Origin: Natronorubrum daqingense
GTDB lineage: Archaea; Halobacteriota; Halobacteria; Halobacteriales; Natrialbaceae
Assembly: GCF_001971705.1 (NCBI RefSeq)
Contig: NZ_CP019327.1
Location: 2,418,001-2,482,000 of the forward strand
Direction: 5' to 3'
DNA: 64,000 bases
Under the pieces are notes generated by a model. That model ran no database searches. It worked only from the letters and a program-made list of their open reading frames with translations, and was not told where the DNA came from. The translations under genes were made by a program, and so were the position numbers. Within the stretch, counting starts at the first letter, position 1. Every line of letters begins with the position of its first letter. This document shows, piece after piece, positions 10,528-25,545 of the stretch.

Positions 10528-10599
10528 GCCTGGGTAGCTTAGCGGTAAAGCGCGTCCTTGGTAAGGACGAGAGCCCGGATTCAAATTCCGGCCTAGGCT
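10528..10599 (+). tRNA. tRNA-Thr (GGT)
   Basis: A full cloverleaf can be drawn. The acceptor stem GCCTGGG (10528-10534) pairs with CCTAGGC (10592-10598), with one G-U pair. The anticodon loop TTGGTAA carries GGT, and the T-arm is GGATTCAAATTCC. The discriminator is T. No intron is present. Unlike the other three tRNA genes of this window, it has no duplicated 3' end downstream. Confidence 0.95.
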
Positions 10600-21616: not shown

Positions 21617-21689
21617 GTCCGGGTTGGGGTAGTGGTTATCCTTCAGCCTTGTGGAGGCTGAGACGCGGGTTCGATTCTCGCACCCGGAC
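21617..21689 (+). tRNA. tRNA-His (GTG)
   Basis: The anticodon loop TTGTGGA in the stem CAGCC/GGCTG gives GTG. The acceptor stem TCCGGGT (21618-21624) pairs with ACCCGGA (21682-21688). The extra G at 21617 faces C73 at 21689, the G-1:C73 pair that marks tRNA-His. A T-rich run follows. Two further copies of its T-arm plus acceptor end lie downstream. Confidence 0.95.
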
Positions 21690-21723
21690 TTTTTCGCGAC
21701 GAACGAAGTGAAGAGCGGAAAAG
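21689..21723 (+). other. Hairpin 1 of the His array, first unit (degenerate)
   Basis: CTTTTTCGC (21689-21697) pairs with GCGGAAAAG (21715-21723) with one G-U. The 17-nt loop contains GACGAACGAAGTGAA, a diverged form of the loop seen in the other hairpins. Confidence 0.5.
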
Positions 21724-21915
21724 CCGGACGGCGAGATCGAACCAGAGAGTAAAGCGAACGAAGTGAGCGGAACGACCGCGGTTCGATTCTCGCACCCGGA
21801 CTTTCTGCGGCGAACAAATACGTGAGCCACAGGAATCCGCAGAGAATCGAACGAGACGAGTCGTGCGCAGCGCCAGCGAGGACGTCTCGGCATTGTTCGA
21901 TTCTCGCACCCGGAC
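21690..21915 (+). repeat. tRNA-His tail repeat array (two extra 3'-end copies)
   Basis: The last 22 bp of tRNA-His (21668-21689) recur exactly at 21780-21801, and 21 bp of them at 21895-21915, giving units of 112 and 114 bp. Each unit holds a hairpin just after the tRNA end, then a segment complementary to the T-arm (ATCGAACC at 21736-21743; AGAATCGAAC at 21843-21852), then the new T-arm copy. AGAATCGAAC is a perfect inverse of GTTCGATTCT at 21895-21904. The second spacer also has the core GCGCAGCG (21865-21872) seen in the Val array. No complete second tRNA is present. Confidence 0.85.
21802..21835 (+). other. Hairpin 1 of the His array, second unit
   Basis: TTTCTGCGGC (21802-21811) pairs with GCCACAGGAA (21826-21835), allowing two non-Watson-Crick positions. 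The loop is GAACAAATACGTGA. A competing perfect pairing CTGCGG/CCGCAG (21805-21810 with 21837-21842) is also possible. Confidence 0.65.
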
Positions 21916-22021
21916 AGTAAGTGCGACATATACTCGAGTTAACGAACCGATCAGCGTCAGCGACCAACCCCACCCAGCCGAGACCGAGAAGCCAATATCA
22001 CTACCGTCGTCCGAGCGAGTA

Positions 22022-22189
22022 ATGACACAAACGGAGGGACCGTTCACCTGCGAGATGTGCGACGCGACGGTGACGATGCGGGACGCCCGTCGGAGCAAAC
22101 CGATGGGCGACCTCGATCCGATGGCGTGGCAGACGCTGTGTTGTCCTCACTGCGGCTCGAGGCTGCGAACGGTCTACGTCGGCGGGTAA
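22022..22189 (+). CDS. Small zinc-finger protein
   Basis: The 55 aa protein has two CxxC pairs: CEMC at residues 10-13 and CPHC near 42-45. These suggest one zinc ribbon. Small haloarchaeal zinc-finger proteins of this sort are common and several affect motility or biofilm, but nothing here assigns a role. The ATG at 22022 was chosen because upstream codons run into the His repeat array. It ends at the aldo/keto reductase stop, convergently. Confidence 0.7.
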   Translation: MTQTEGPFTCEMCDATVTMRDARRSKPMGDLDPMAWQTLCCPHCGSRLRTVYVGG

Positions 22190-23050
22190 TCACTCGCCGG
22201 CCTCGGTCAGTCGCTGTACGTCTTCGTCCGCGAGCGAGAGTTGTGAGGCTTCGACGTTCGACTCGAGGTGCTCCGGATCCGACGTTCCCGGAATCGGGAG
22301 GATAACGTCGGAGCGCTCGAGGAGCCACGCCAGTCCGATCTGGCGTCGGGTCGCGTCGTAGTCGTCGGCGATCTCGTCCACGAGGTCGCCGTGTTCGTCC
22401 AAATCCTCGGCGTCGATCGGTGCCCACGGAATGAACCCGATGTCGTTGTCTTCGCAGACCTCGAGTACGTCCGCGTTCGATCGGTCGTCCAGGTTGAACC
22501 GGTTCTGAACGGTGGCAACGTCGACGTGCTCGCGGGCCGTCTCGAGTTGGTCGACAGAGACGTTGCTGACGCCGACCTGATCGACGAGGCCCTCGTCCTG
22601 GAGTTCGGCGAACGTCTGGATCGAGTCCTCGAACGACGTGTCGGGGTCGGGTCGGTGGAACTGATAGAGATCGATGGTGTCCGTTCGGAGTCGATCGAGG
22701 GACGCGAGCACCTGATTACGAATGTAGTCTGGCTCGCCGTGGGGGATCCAGTCGCTCTCGCGATTTCGGAGGAGGCCGGCTTTCGTCGCCACCAGCACGT
22801 CGTCTGGATCACCGATCGTCTCCCCGATGAGGCGTTCGCTGACCCCCGGCCCGTAGGAATCTGCGGTGTCGATGAAGTCGATTCCGCACTCGAGTGCCCG
22901 CTCGAGGACCGTGCGAGCAGTGGCTTCGTCCTCGGGCGGGCCGATGATCTCTTCGCCACAGAGGCGCATCGCGCCGAATCCCAGTCGGTGGATCGTGGTG
23001 TCGCCGATGTCGAAGGTGTCGCTCTCGTTCGTAATCGACTCGCTACTCAT
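22190..23050 (-). CDS. Aldo/keto reductase
   Basis: The 286 aa protein is an NAD(P)H-dependent oxidoreductase with a TIM barrel. The catalytic tetrad is visible: Asp and Tyr in DTADSYGPG, Lys in VATKAGL, and His in DLYQFHRPDP. The C-terminal GTSDPEHLESNVEAS binds the cofactor. The substrate is unknown. The start at 23050 gives MSSESITNESDTFDIGDTTIHRLGFG, the family N terminus. Confidence 0.88.
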   Translation of the reverse strand: MSSESITNESDTFDIGDTTIHRLGFGAMRLCGEEIIGPPEDEATARTVLERALECGIDFIDTADSYGPGVSERLIGETIGDPDDVLVATKAGLLRNRESDWIPHGEPDYIRNQVLASLDRLRTDTIDLYQFHRPDPDTSFEDSIQTFAELQDEGLVDQVGVSNVSVDQLETAREHVDVATVQNRFNLDDRSNADVLEVCEDNDIGFIPWAPIDAEDLDEHGDLVDEIADDYDATRRQIGLAWLLERSDVILPIPGTSDPEHLESNVEASQLSLADEDVQRLTEAGE

Positions 23051-23190
23051 GGACGATACGACTGGGAGGGAACGCATAACCGTTGGGCGTTCAGCTGCAG
23101 CCACGGTCGTCACAGCGGGCTCTCGAGCAGAAACTTAGATGGATGTGAAGGCGAATTCACCGAAGTGAGAAACGGTCGATACGGACGGAA

Positions 23191-23502
23191 TCACGTGACG
23201 AAGGGGCTGGCTCGCTGCAATCCAGTCCAGATCACAGCCGTCAAACCACCCGTAATGAGGAGCGAGTATCCGGCGTAGAGCCCGAACAGACCGGTAATGG
23301 CACAGGTCGTACCTGTACACGTCCGGTCGAACGCAGGCCATATCCACCCGATGGGAGCGACGAATAACTCGAGTGACGAGAGCGGATACACCAGAAACGA
23401 GAGAATGGGGCCGAGGAACACCACACCGAAGATCGCCGCGAATAACACCGGCTTCCCGATCGATGGTGCTCCCTTCGATTCAGTCCCACCGAAATCGCTC
23501 AT
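23191..23502 (-). CDS. Small membrane protein of unknown function
   Basis: The 103 aa protein has three hydrophobic segments (about 18-40, 42-55 and 66-92). Two Cys residues lie in the loop between them (RTCTGTTCAITG). An N-terminal Ser/Gly-rich tail of about 15 residues is cytoplasmic or exposed. No family is recognised. Confidence 0.55.
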   Translation of the reverse strand: MSDFGGTESKGAPSIGKPVLFAAIFGVVFLGPILSFLVYPLSSLELFVAPIGWIWPAFDRTCTGTTCAITGLFGLYAGYSLLITGGLTAVIWTGLQRASPFVT

Positions 23503-23659
23503 AGACAGTTCTAGTTATTCTTCTCACAAGTGCTTTCTGTAATTGCCGACGTGTCTCAGTTCGAAGCCGTCGGTGGCTAGAGAACAGTACCGACGATAAT
23601 CGGGTGGGTCGTGTTTCGCTCGAGTGTTTTCGCCGGATGGAAGTCGCGTGAAAAAGCCA

Positions 23660-23784
23660 TACCGCCTCCCGGATTTGAACCGAAGGAAGACAGTCCTGCT
23701 CGCTTCGCTGTGCGGGCTGTGACTTCCAGGGTTCAAATCCGATCAGATGGATTTCTCTCGCTCACGGGTTGTTCGCGAGAGAAA
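23660..23784 (-). repeat. tRNA-Phe tail repeat unit
   Basis: On the minus strand the 22-bp T-arm plus acceptor end of tRNA-Phe (23785-23806) recurs at 23660-23681 with a single change, giving a unit of 125 bp. Between them lie a hairpin next to the tRNA end and a second, larger inverted repeat: GGTTCAAATCC at 23730-23740 against GGATTTGAACC at 23671-23681. The core CGCTGTGC (23706-23713, GCACAGCG on the sense strand) matches the cores of the His and Val units. The change converts C72 of the acceptor end to T. Confidence 0.85.
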
Positions 23785-23785
23785 T
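23751..23785 (-). other. Hairpin 1 of the Phe array
   Basis: An 11-bp perfect inverted repeat, ATTTCTCTCGC (23751-23761) and GCGAGAGAAAT (23775-23785), encloses 13 nt. On the tRNA-sense strand the loop is GAACAACCCGTGA. The hairpin begins at the discriminator base of tRNA-Phe. Confidence 0.8.
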
Positions 23786-23858
23786 GCCGCCTCCCGGATT
23801 TGAACCGGGGACAGCTCGATCTTCAGTCGAGTGCTCTCCCAGTCTGAGCTAAGGCGGC
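23785..23858 (-). tRNA. tRNA-Phe (GAA)
   Basis: On the minus strand the acceptor stem GCCGCCT (23852-23858) pairs with AGGCGGC (23786-23792), and the discriminator is A at 23785. The anticodon loop CTGAAGA in the stem CTCGA/TCGAG gives GAA. The T-arm is GGTTCAAATCC. No intron is present. An incomplete copy of its 3' end follows downstream. Confidence 0.95.
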
Positions 23859-24081
23859 TCACTCTCACATCCGTCGATCGTATAAAAAAGGATTTCGAAT
23901 CGGAGATCCAAATCGTGTGAGGAAGTACCATCCAAAAAGTGTGGAGGAACTTCGCGAGTAAGCGTTTGTATCGGACAGAAACGTAGACCATACTATCACA
24001 TTCATCAGCTATTCACCGTAGTCTGTTGGATTTCAGGATATTCAAGACACCCTTTTCAGGTCTGGTGGGTAATACTATGTT

Positions 24082-24528
24082 ATGGATGCACTTACCTCGA
24101 GTCAGGGGGAGCAAGAACTCTCTGCAGACACCATCCTCGAGTTGCTGGCTAACCGCCGGCGACGGTACCTCCTCTACGCGCTGCGGGGCCAGGAACATCC
24201 GATCGAGTTGTCGACGTTAGCCGAGCAGGTCGCTGGGTGGGAACACGACGTGCCGCCGGAGGAGGTCGCAAAAAACGAGTACAAGAGCGTCTACGTCTCG
24301 TCGGTACAGTGTCACGTCCCGAAACTGGCCGACGCAGGCGTCGTCGACCACGACGAAGAGAATCACACCGTGGTGCTCGCAAGCAATTTCACGCAACTCG
24401 AGCCCTACCTCCGCGTCGTCATCAAGGACGAACCAGAAAATTCGATGTTACACGCCGCACTCGAGCAAGAATCCGGTGAGGGCTTGCTGGGCCAGATTCG
24501 AGAGAACGTGGCTCGATTGAAGCATTAA
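24082..24528 (+). CDS. Winged-helix DUF7344 protein
   Basis: The 148 aa protein has a predicted winged helix. It includes SADTILELLANRRRRYLLYALRG (about 14-36), the recognition region LAEQVAGWE, a long insertion EVAKNEYKSVYVSSVQCHVPKLADAGVVDHD, and the wing (HTVVLASN). This is the DUF7344 pattern common in haloarchaeal regulators. It likely binds DNA as a dimer; the target is unknown. No partner gene is adjacent. Confidence 0.75.
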   Translation: MDALTSSQGEQELSADTILELLANRRRRYLLYALRGQEHPIELSTLAEQVAGWEHDVPPEEVAKNEYKSVYVSSVQCHVPKLADAGVVDHDEENHTVVLASNFTQLEPYLRVVIKDEPENSMLHAALEQESGEGLLGQIRENVARLKH

Positions 24529-24889
24529 CGACCGAATGAGCAGATCGGAGACGGAATCGACACCGGATGACTCGAGGGGTAGTGGGGGGCTGGTTTTCGG
24601 AAGCGTTCGCGGTTGAGTTCCTCACACATCGGATACGTATCGAACGCTAAAGGACGTGTCTGCGAGTCGAAGAACCGCCGTTCGTAGTCTCGAGTTACTT
24701 CGAGTGAATAGTATCACGACTGGACGAACTGATCTACACTGACGTGGACGTGATTGAACTCGTCGCTCAGCCATCAATACTCGGACTAGCCAGTTGCACT
24801 TTCGGACACTATCACTGGTTACCCCGGAGAGCGAATCGTTCGGGTGTGCGTAACTAACCACGCCCGCCATCACAGAATCGACGAGAACG
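24529..24889. other. Gene-free stretch of about 360 bp
   Basis: No convincing gene, hairpin or repeat was found here. Base composition is a little more AT-rich than in the coding neighbours. It lies between the DUF7344 gene and a decayed gene, within the accessory segment that holds the three tRNA arrays. Confidence 0.5.
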
Positions 24890-25251
24890 ATGCTGGAGTC
24901 TCGAGACGACGATCGGTTTCGTCCGACGCCCGTCCAGGAGGAGTGGAACCCACAGTCGATGGACGGAGTCGTCGGCGTGCGAATCGAGGCAGATCCGAAT
25001 GGCGAATCGTCGTCCACAGAGTGGCTCTGGTCTTCGCGGTGGCTCGACGCCGTCGCAAAACGATAGCGGACGTGGTCTACGTTGCGTGGACGGCGATTGT
25101 GATCCTCGAGTGACTATTCGCCGTGATCTTCGGTGTGCTTGTCTCACGGTACGGGCAGGTCGAACGGTTTCTGAAGCCTCTCGAGTTCGGTGCAGATTCT
25201 CGAGAATCGGTTCCTCAAGAGCGCGAGCGAGGTTGTTCGCCATCAAAATAG
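24890..25251 (+). pseudogene. Decayed small membrane-protein gene
   Basis: From ATG 24890 one frame reads 58 acidic, protein-like residues (MLESRDDDRFRPTPVQEEWN to WSSRWLDAVAKR) and stops at 25066. Shifting frame at the AAAA run near 25058 gives TIADVVYVAWTAIVILE, then a TGA at 25111, then LFAVIFGVLVSRYGQVERFL and onward to a TAG at 25251. The hydrophobic segments join well across both breaks. One frameshift plus one in-frame stop therefore explain the region as a broken gene of about 120 codons. Its end overlaps the last Val repeat copy. Family not recognised. Confidence 0.4.
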
Positions 25252-25471
25252 GCTCGGGCGGGTTCGCACCGAAATCAGACGTGCTCGCGACGCTGCGCGC
25301 GACTGATAGGGTTCGAACCGCCCTTACGACAGATTTCTGCCGCTCACGAATTGTTCGCGGCAGAAATATGGGCTCGGGCGGGTTCGAACCACGGTCGGAG
25401 CAAGCTCCTCCCTGATTTGAACCCGGCACTCGCATACATTTCTCTGGTTCACTGGTTGTTCGCCGGAGAAA
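25249..25471 (-). repeat. tRNA-Val tail repeat array (two extra 3'-end copies)
   Basis: The 24-bp 3' end of tRNA-Val (25472-25495) recurs exactly at 25369-25392. A 22-bp form with two changes lies at 25249-25270. The units are 103 and 120 bp. Each has the hairpin next to the preceding tRNA end and a T-arm-like inverse segment (GATTTGAACCCG at 25414-25425; GGGTTCGAACCG at 25309-25320). The second unit carries the shared core CGCTGCGC at 25291-25298. The terminal copy has the same C72-to-T change as the Phe copy. A further loop-like piece follows at about 25231-25240. Confidence 0.85.
25333..25367 (-). other. Hairpin 1 of the Val array, second unit
   Basis: A perfect 11-bp inverted repeat, ATTTCTGCCGC (25333-25343) and GCGGCAGAAAT (25357-25367), encloses 13 nt. 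On the tRNA-sense strand the loop is GAACAATTCGTGA. Confidence 0.8.
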
Positions 25472-25472
25472 T
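25438..25472 (-). other. Hairpin 1 of the Val array, first unit
   Basis: ATTTCTCTGG (25438-25447) and CCGGAGAAAT (25463-25472) pair with one mismatch or wobble. The sense-strand loop includes GAACAACCAGTGA. It starts at the discriminator base of tRNA-Val. Confidence 0.75.
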
Positions 25473-25545
25473 GGGCTCGGGCGGGTTCGAACCACCGACC
25501 TCGGCCTTGTAAAGGCCGCGTCATGACCAGCTAGACCACGAGCCC
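25472..25545 (-). tRNA. tRNA-Val (TAC)
   Basis: On the minus strand the acceptor stem GGGCTCG (25539-25545) pairs with CGAGCCC (25473-25479), and the discriminator is A at 25472. The anticodon loop TTTACAA in the stem GGCC/GGCC gives TAC. The T-arm is GGTTCGAACC. No intron is present. Two partial copies of the 3' end follow downstream. Confidence 0.95.

Follow-up and report, generated by a model that had tools for sequence, protein, structure and literature searches.

Tandem gene-free units behind haloarchaeal tRNA genes, each closing with a copy of the tRNA 3' end

The closest known counterpart of the units that we describe here is the RtT RNA repeats (RF00391), which lie behind tyrT and tyrV in Escherichia coli. 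Integron cassettes are small and tandem; each has a folded site in which bases close to the exchange point are unpaired, and the junction has a core GTT. The PATEs and REP/BIME elements derived from IS200/IS605 are short, gene-free and hairpin-bearing, with single-strand recognition and guide-like pairing. Archaeal tRNA-targeting integrative elements use the 3' part of a tRNA gene as their attachment site (attB) and rebuild it on insertion (PMC8371274; PMC9897764). Our subject is a stretch of 64,000 nucleotides (nt) from the haloarchaeon Natronorubrum daqingense (contig NZ_CP019327.1, positions 2,418,001 to 2,482,000; the whole stretch is called the window), in which the genes for tRNA-His, tRNA-Phe and tRNA-Val are each followed by one or two small units that end in a copy of the tRNA 3' end, or tail. 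These units belong to a family that is real and haloarchaea-wide, and they are probably non-autonomous, gene-free mobile 'tRNA-tail cassettes' of ~100-150 base pairs (bp), site-specific at the tRNA T-loop. A reading of the window made earlier from its letters alone (the sequence-only reading) knew of no such system, and the open-licence literature that we searched holds no description of such units in archaea.

Anatomy and distribution of the units

A unit follows a fixed order: tail, hairpin H1, a linker, the antisense of the T-loop and T-stem 3' strand, hairpin H2, and the next tail. We collected anatomical statistics from 154 units, which lie behind 101 tRNA genes of N. daqingense and other haloarchaea. 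The units have a median length of 122 nt (about 100-150 nt overall), contain no genes, and mostly start with a T-rich stretch. Their copied part consists of the T-loop, the T-stem 3' strand and the acceptor-stem 3' strand (G52/G53 through N73), with sharp borders. Up to 3 nt before T54, units match the tRNA with an identity below 0.46; the value is 0.79 at 2 nt before T54, stays at 0.8-0.99 as far as N73, and is 0.56 or less thereafter. At the position of the T-stem 5' strand, units have bases of their own (CGTGG, CGTAG, TTCGG and others). The sequence-only reading had taken the copy to be the T-arm plus the acceptor end; the span from G52/G53 to N73 bears this out, and the T-stem 5' strand has to be removed from it. 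The segment inverse to the T-arm and the hairpin at the tRNA end, which it had also reported, are present in every unit of the window. Tail mismatches grow with distance from the tRNA (1.37, 1.78 and 2.33 at ranks 1-3). The antisense segment fits its own tRNA at positions 62-65 (2.05 of 4 matches, against 1.44 with permuted tRNA labels; 0/2000) and does not match it at 66-67; the segment is thus tRNA-specific and ends with the T-stem.

Genome counts rest on scored tRNA loci. In N. daqingense, 28 of the 41 scored tRNA genes carry one to five units downstream, in tRNA orientation (one unit at 17 genes, two at 7, three at 3 and five at 1). When we scanned ~19 kilobases (kb) downstream of each of ~40 tRNA genes, the tail 20-mer recurred 44 times in direct orientation, nearly always within 1 kb, and once inverted. 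As a control, the 20-mer of the tRNA 5' end recurred a single time in the same scans, and that one was the second tRNA-Asp gene. The scored loci have no upstream copies except those of the second tRNA-Asp gene lying upstream, and inverted copies almost never occur. The same tail scan in six non-haloarchaeal Halobacteriota genomes found copies at none of 37 tRNA genes. Chance as the origin of the tail copies is ruled out by these 5'-end, orientation and non-haloarchaeal controls. Within the window, all five of the extra copies counted by the sequence-only reading are confirmed (two for His, one for Phe, two for Val), 103-125 nt apart; start-to-start distances are 112 and 114 nt for His, 125 nt for Phe, and 103 and 120 nt for Val. 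The lack of copies at tRNA-Thr was also correctly noted, and holds both nearby and over 19 kb.

We aligned two classes of H2 (28 and 31 sequences) and searched with two structure models of H2, R1 and R2. Model R1 matches all 7 haloarchaea searched and none of 53 other Halobacteriota. Model R2 matches 37 of 39 haloarchaeal genomes, with between 1 and 29 matches in each, and has none in the other two. One of those two, G103, has no unit at its scored tRNA loci; its congener G115 has nine model matches. Units in 37 of 39 genomes, with shared and covarying parts, are the opposite of copies unique to one strain, which the sequence-only reading had named as a finding that would speak against a common system. 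Four genomes supplied 50 listed model matches, of which 49 follow a tRNA gene in the same orientation at a distance of less than 700 nt (chance ~0.5% each), an association that is not fully independent because the models include the T-loop pairing. The remaining match is 28 kb downstream of tRNA-Thr(cgt), beyond a 27.9-kb island. H2 tips alone also show the tRNA association (24 of 35 in 738 kb). No match was found in Rfam at the gathering score, and none of note at E up to 5. Searches of phages and plasmids with the Phe unit gave no match, and the single viral-contig match is a chromosomal tRNA-Glu flank. With nothing matched beyond that flank, a viral, plasmid or phage origin was rejected, and the Phe unit gives no support to the phage or plasmid scars that the sequence-only reading had named as a finding against a common system.

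Folded structure and likeness to known systems

The antisense segment pairs with the tail copy in both alignments; 90% of cells are paired in one and 84% in the other, and the covariation scores are 0.398 and 0.335. These scores were reached by 0 of 500 shuffles, counts that are not probabilities because the alignments were picked by class and are partly related by descent; slid controls were far below. Folding favors the tRNA-sense strand over its complement in 116 of 143 units with RNA energies and in 112 of 143 with DNA energies. Tandem GA/GA pairs are found in 191 of 310 sense hairpins versus 5 of 228 antisense hairpins. GNA loops make up 83 of 146 triloops, whereas GNRA and UNCG together account for only 5 of 58 tetraloops. 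The inner loop pair of H1 is A-T 22 times, G-C 8 times, and never mixed. GNA and GNNA loops give extraordinarily stable DNA mini-hairpins, d(GCGAAGC) melting at 78 °C (PMC4686876). From the use of the tRNA-sense strand, the GNA loops and the scarcity of GNRA and UNCG, we infer that the folded form that is recognized is single-stranded DNA (ssDNA).

The RtT repeats resemble the haloarchaeal units in several respects. Both are tandem units after a tRNA gene, each closing with a tRNA 3'-end copy that begins inside the T-loop; in both, an anti-tail segment pairs with the new tail, and internal hairpins carry tandem GA and GNNA loops (GCCA, GTCA and GAAA in RtT). Annotated RtT repeats number 0 to 6 among E. 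coli genomes (locus L135:1200-2130 was examined). However, RtT is confined to one tRNA family at one locus, whereas the haloarchaeal units lie behind many tRNAs. RtT units are 178 nt long (against the haloarchaeal median of 122 nt) and near copies of each other, and have an anti-tail covering ~A59-C68 and no clear H1. The RtT covariance model found no match in the region at E up to 5 and none in the whole genome, and the haloarchaeal models gave only background scores on RtT. The ground plan is common to both, but these reciprocal negatives give no support to membership of the haloarchaeal units in RtT. A known RNA family was likewise rejected as an identity for the units, with no Rfam match of note and the RtT model negative in the genome.

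The units are, like integron cassettes, small stacked cassettes with a folded site. H2 folds from one strand and covaries, a possible likeness to attC. The units differ from integron cassettes in being gene-free, in having the tRNA T-loop as their site, and in their haloarchaeal host. No integron integrase turned up in a general PF00589 search, and none of the searches was aimed at an integron integrase. Archaeal tRNA-targeting elements with SNJ2-, SSV- or pT26-2-type tyrosine integrases share the direct repeat of a tRNA 3' end at both element ends, but they span kilobases and encode an integrase, whereas the units are 100-150 bp long and have none. PATEs and REP/BIME elements differ in having neither tail copies nor a tie to tRNAs. 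The Y1/IS200 transposase was rejected as the mover, since PF01797 is absent from two unit-rich genomes (G115 and G117, with 9 and 27 model matches).

Movement, module exchange and competing explanations

A comparison of unit numbers between close strains had been proposed, and at one tRNA gene close Haloferax species differ by exactly one whole unit. Behind an upstream tRNA-Phe, Haloferax gibbonsii differs in this way from Q22 and others, with a common outer flank. In H. sulfurifontis, the antisense segment of a unit at this tRNA-Phe is interrupted at GGTTC by an inverted insert of 114 nt. This insert corresponds exactly to a single tRNA-Val unit opened in the T-loop, with GGTTC at both junctions; related species carry the empty site. 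At Haloferax tRNA-Val, each of two H1 types (a, b) is found with each of two H2 types (x, y), so exchange occurred at the antisense segment. H2 modules that pair at 85% identity or more do so 87 times behind the same tRNA and 57 times behind different tRNAs; for tail-linked H1 modules at the same level the numbers are 105 and 1. That H2 is common to several tRNAs and H1 is not is as expected from exchange at T-loop sites. The H2 of the Phe unit is one base apart from an H2 behind tRNA-Ile in the same genome. Near-identical neighbors account for only 3 of 51 consecutive unit pairs (in Lys, Asn and Asp arrays). Most arrays are therefore not simple tandem duplications, and that origin was discarded. 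The one-unit differences, the inverted ectopic insertion and the module exchange support the mobile-element reading that had been offered for the window. An all-or-none pattern at the genome level, G103 being empty at its scored loci while its congener is not, speaks for it too.

We propose that a cassette would comprise a tRNA tail (T-loop to N73), H1, the antisense of the T-loop and T-stem 3' strand, and H2 with a T-loop-like junction. In circular form it would recombine with its tRNA gene inside the T-loop; the tail that it brings would complete the tRNA, and the old tail would be displaced downstream, behind H2. Successive insertions would give tandem arrays. The enzyme would act in trans and might be a tRNA-targeting tyrosine recombinase. 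The antisense segment of the folded ssDNA would pair with the T-loop at the exchange site, much like an integron attC. Because a matching tail would be required, tail and H1 would stay with one tRNA while H2 could travel. Single-strand structure together with the antisense segment suggests an attC-like folded site or guide-like target pairing. We raise more tentatively the idea of a new category of mobile DNA: ssDNA hairpin cassettes whose antisense segment is a built-in guide to a particular tRNA T-loop and whose modules re-assort between tRNAs, with E. coli RtT as a bacterial branch.

A number of points weigh against mobility. Only one clear ectopic insertion was found among 372 tail-like places, and neither a circular intermediate nor active movement was seen. 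Unit loss between identical tails or antisense segments could also proceed by short-repeat deletion, and the comparisons of gain and loss were made between close species, not strains of one haloarchaeal species. The likeness of H2 across tRNAs may come partly from constraint, and the sense-strand bias suits RNA equally well with ssDNA. Searches of phages, plasmids and viral contigs turned up no copies but the one chromosomal flank. No recombinase was identified, and tyrosine recombinases (PF00589) also occur in unit-poor genomes. Presence and absence could not tie the units to a single integrase family, as PF00589 proteins are everywhere and unit-free genomes too few.

The main rival is that the units are RtT-like structured RNAs within tRNA primary transcripts, in which the trailer folds into H1 and H2 and is cut off during 3' processing, to serve as a regulatory RNA or as an antisense-T-arm brake on tRNA maturation. 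The sequence-only reading had put forward such RNAs beside mobile elements, and part of this stands: selection for structure acts on the tRNA-sense strand, the ground plan recurs in E. coli RtT, which is a known small RNA, and the antisense segment could pair with the T-arm of its own tRNA. However, GNA triloops cap the hairpins and GNRA or UNCG loops are almost absent, no Rfam family matches, and transcription may stop at the T-rich start of most units. RNA alone would also leave unexplained why the full tail is copied as far as N73, why units are gained and lost as exact single units, how the ectopic insertion arose, and why units are absent from the scored loci of G103. We rank structured RNA below mobile cassettes and consider it rather unlikely, although the two could both be true together.

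The remaining explanations are far less probable. Slippage and gene conversion acting on a tandem-duplicating structural repeat, with no dedicated recombinase, would suit the few arrays with near-identical neighbors (Lys, Asn and Asp), the variable RtT copy number in E. coli and the repeat-mediated deletion reported in Haloquadratum (PMC3119063). This is improbable: 48 of 51 neighbor pairs are not near-identical, and the ectopic Val unit, being inverted, is not a product of slippage. A slightly smaller chance attaches to a host-maintained att buffer or decoy, whose extra T-loop sites would absorb or deflect integrases and shield the tRNA gene. Att-like copies in variable number are indeed kept beside tRNAs in most haloarchaea, but the island at tRNA-Thr(cgt) entered the tRNA itself, upstream of the units, and a decoy has no need for H1, H2 or an antisense segment. 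Least probable are scars of ordinary tRNA-targeting islands, in which serial integration and decay would leave repeated tails separated by random sequence. These tRNA ends are indeed used by ordinary islands, as with the 27.9-kb island and a 1.35-kb element at tRNA-Arg(gcg). Across many tRNAs and genera, the spacers have two covarying hairpins and an antisense segment that fits the tRNA, features that random scars would lack, and 49 of 50 checked model matches adjoin a tRNA; covariation and the tRNA-matched segments refute scars as a general explanation.

Window features, odd loci and significance

The genes adjoining the units of the window (Table 1) are an aldo/keto reductase, DUF7344, DUF192 and DUF5814, with nothing mobile among them.

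Table 1. tRNA genes and units in the window, in window positions; the four tRNA genes were called by ARAGORN and Rfam
Feature	Position	Strand	Description	Parts
tRNA-Thr(ggt)	10528..10599	+	no adjoining unit, no tail copy within 19 kb; unit-free contrast	
tRNA-His(gtg)	21617..21690	+	hosts two-unit array	
His unit 1	21690..21801	+	~112 nt; H2 scores 42.8 bits with model R1	H1 21690-21723; antisense-T segment 21731-21743; H2 21744-21781, tip GCGAACGAAGTGAGCG; tail copy T54-N73 21782-21801
His unit 2	21802..21915	+	114 nt; 57.7 bits with model R2	H1 21802-21835; antisense-T 21842-21852; H2 21853-21895; tail copy 21896-21915
Phe unit	23660..23784	-	125 nt; 80.2 bits with model R2; ssDNA fold z = -5.25	H1 23752-23784; antisense-T 23730-23741; H2 23680-23729; tail copy ~23660-23679
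tRNA-Phe(gaa)	23785..23858	-	hosts one-unit array	
Val unit 2	25249..25368	-	120 nt; 57.9 bits with model R2	H1 25333-25367; antisense-T 25310-25323; H2 25269-25309; tail copy 25249-25268 (2 changes)
Val unit 1	25369..25471	-	103 nt; 55.8 bits with model R1	H1 25439-25471; antisense-T 25414-25426; H2 25389-25413; tail copy 25369-25388
tRNA-Val(tac)	25472..25545	-	hosts two-unit array	

Several loci outside the window combine units or tail copies with other DNA. The 27.9-kb island (chromosome 1918900-1946927) sits at tRNA-Thr(cgt), upstream of its units, with the att core CCCTCCACCGGCT. It contains a tyrosine recombinase and PglZ-like and BrxL-like (BREX-type) genes, named by reading the proteins, not by family search. 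At tRNA-Arg(gcg) (L129:1-1700), the 1.35-kb element carries an exact copy of the tail and an integrase-like fragment that has decayed, and is followed by ~66-bp tandem repeats, unlike the units, in which part of the tRNA tail recurs in antisense. Past the first unit of tRNA-Gly(tcc) (L095:55-2700), an interrupted H1-like hairpin and an H2 with tail copy stand 2.4 kb apart; the gap holds histidine-kinase-like and regulator-like genes, as if a unit took on cargo or was split. In Natrialba chahannaoensis, a 4.8-kb insertion bounded by GGTTCGAA lies between tRNA-Val and an H2 with tail copy (L091), and carries an IS1595-like transposase and a nitroreductase-like gene. Five units follow tRNA-Val in Halorientalis regularis (L089), and the last four alternate A-B-A-B, two units having been duplicated together as one block.

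Both the mobile and the RNA reading can be tested in genetically tractable haloarchaea, and G103, which is unit-free at its scored loci, compared with G115 would be useful for finding the enzyme responsible. Either reading bears on the annotation of tRNA fragments and att sites. If the units are RNAs, they would form a large undescribed family tied to tRNA transcripts. If they are mobile, few known site-specific mobile elements would be smaller. They would then explain much of the variable sequence behind haloarchaeal tRNA genes, show how cassettes without genes keep their fit to dozens of different tRNAs, and place the old puzzle of the E. coli RtT repeats in a new context.

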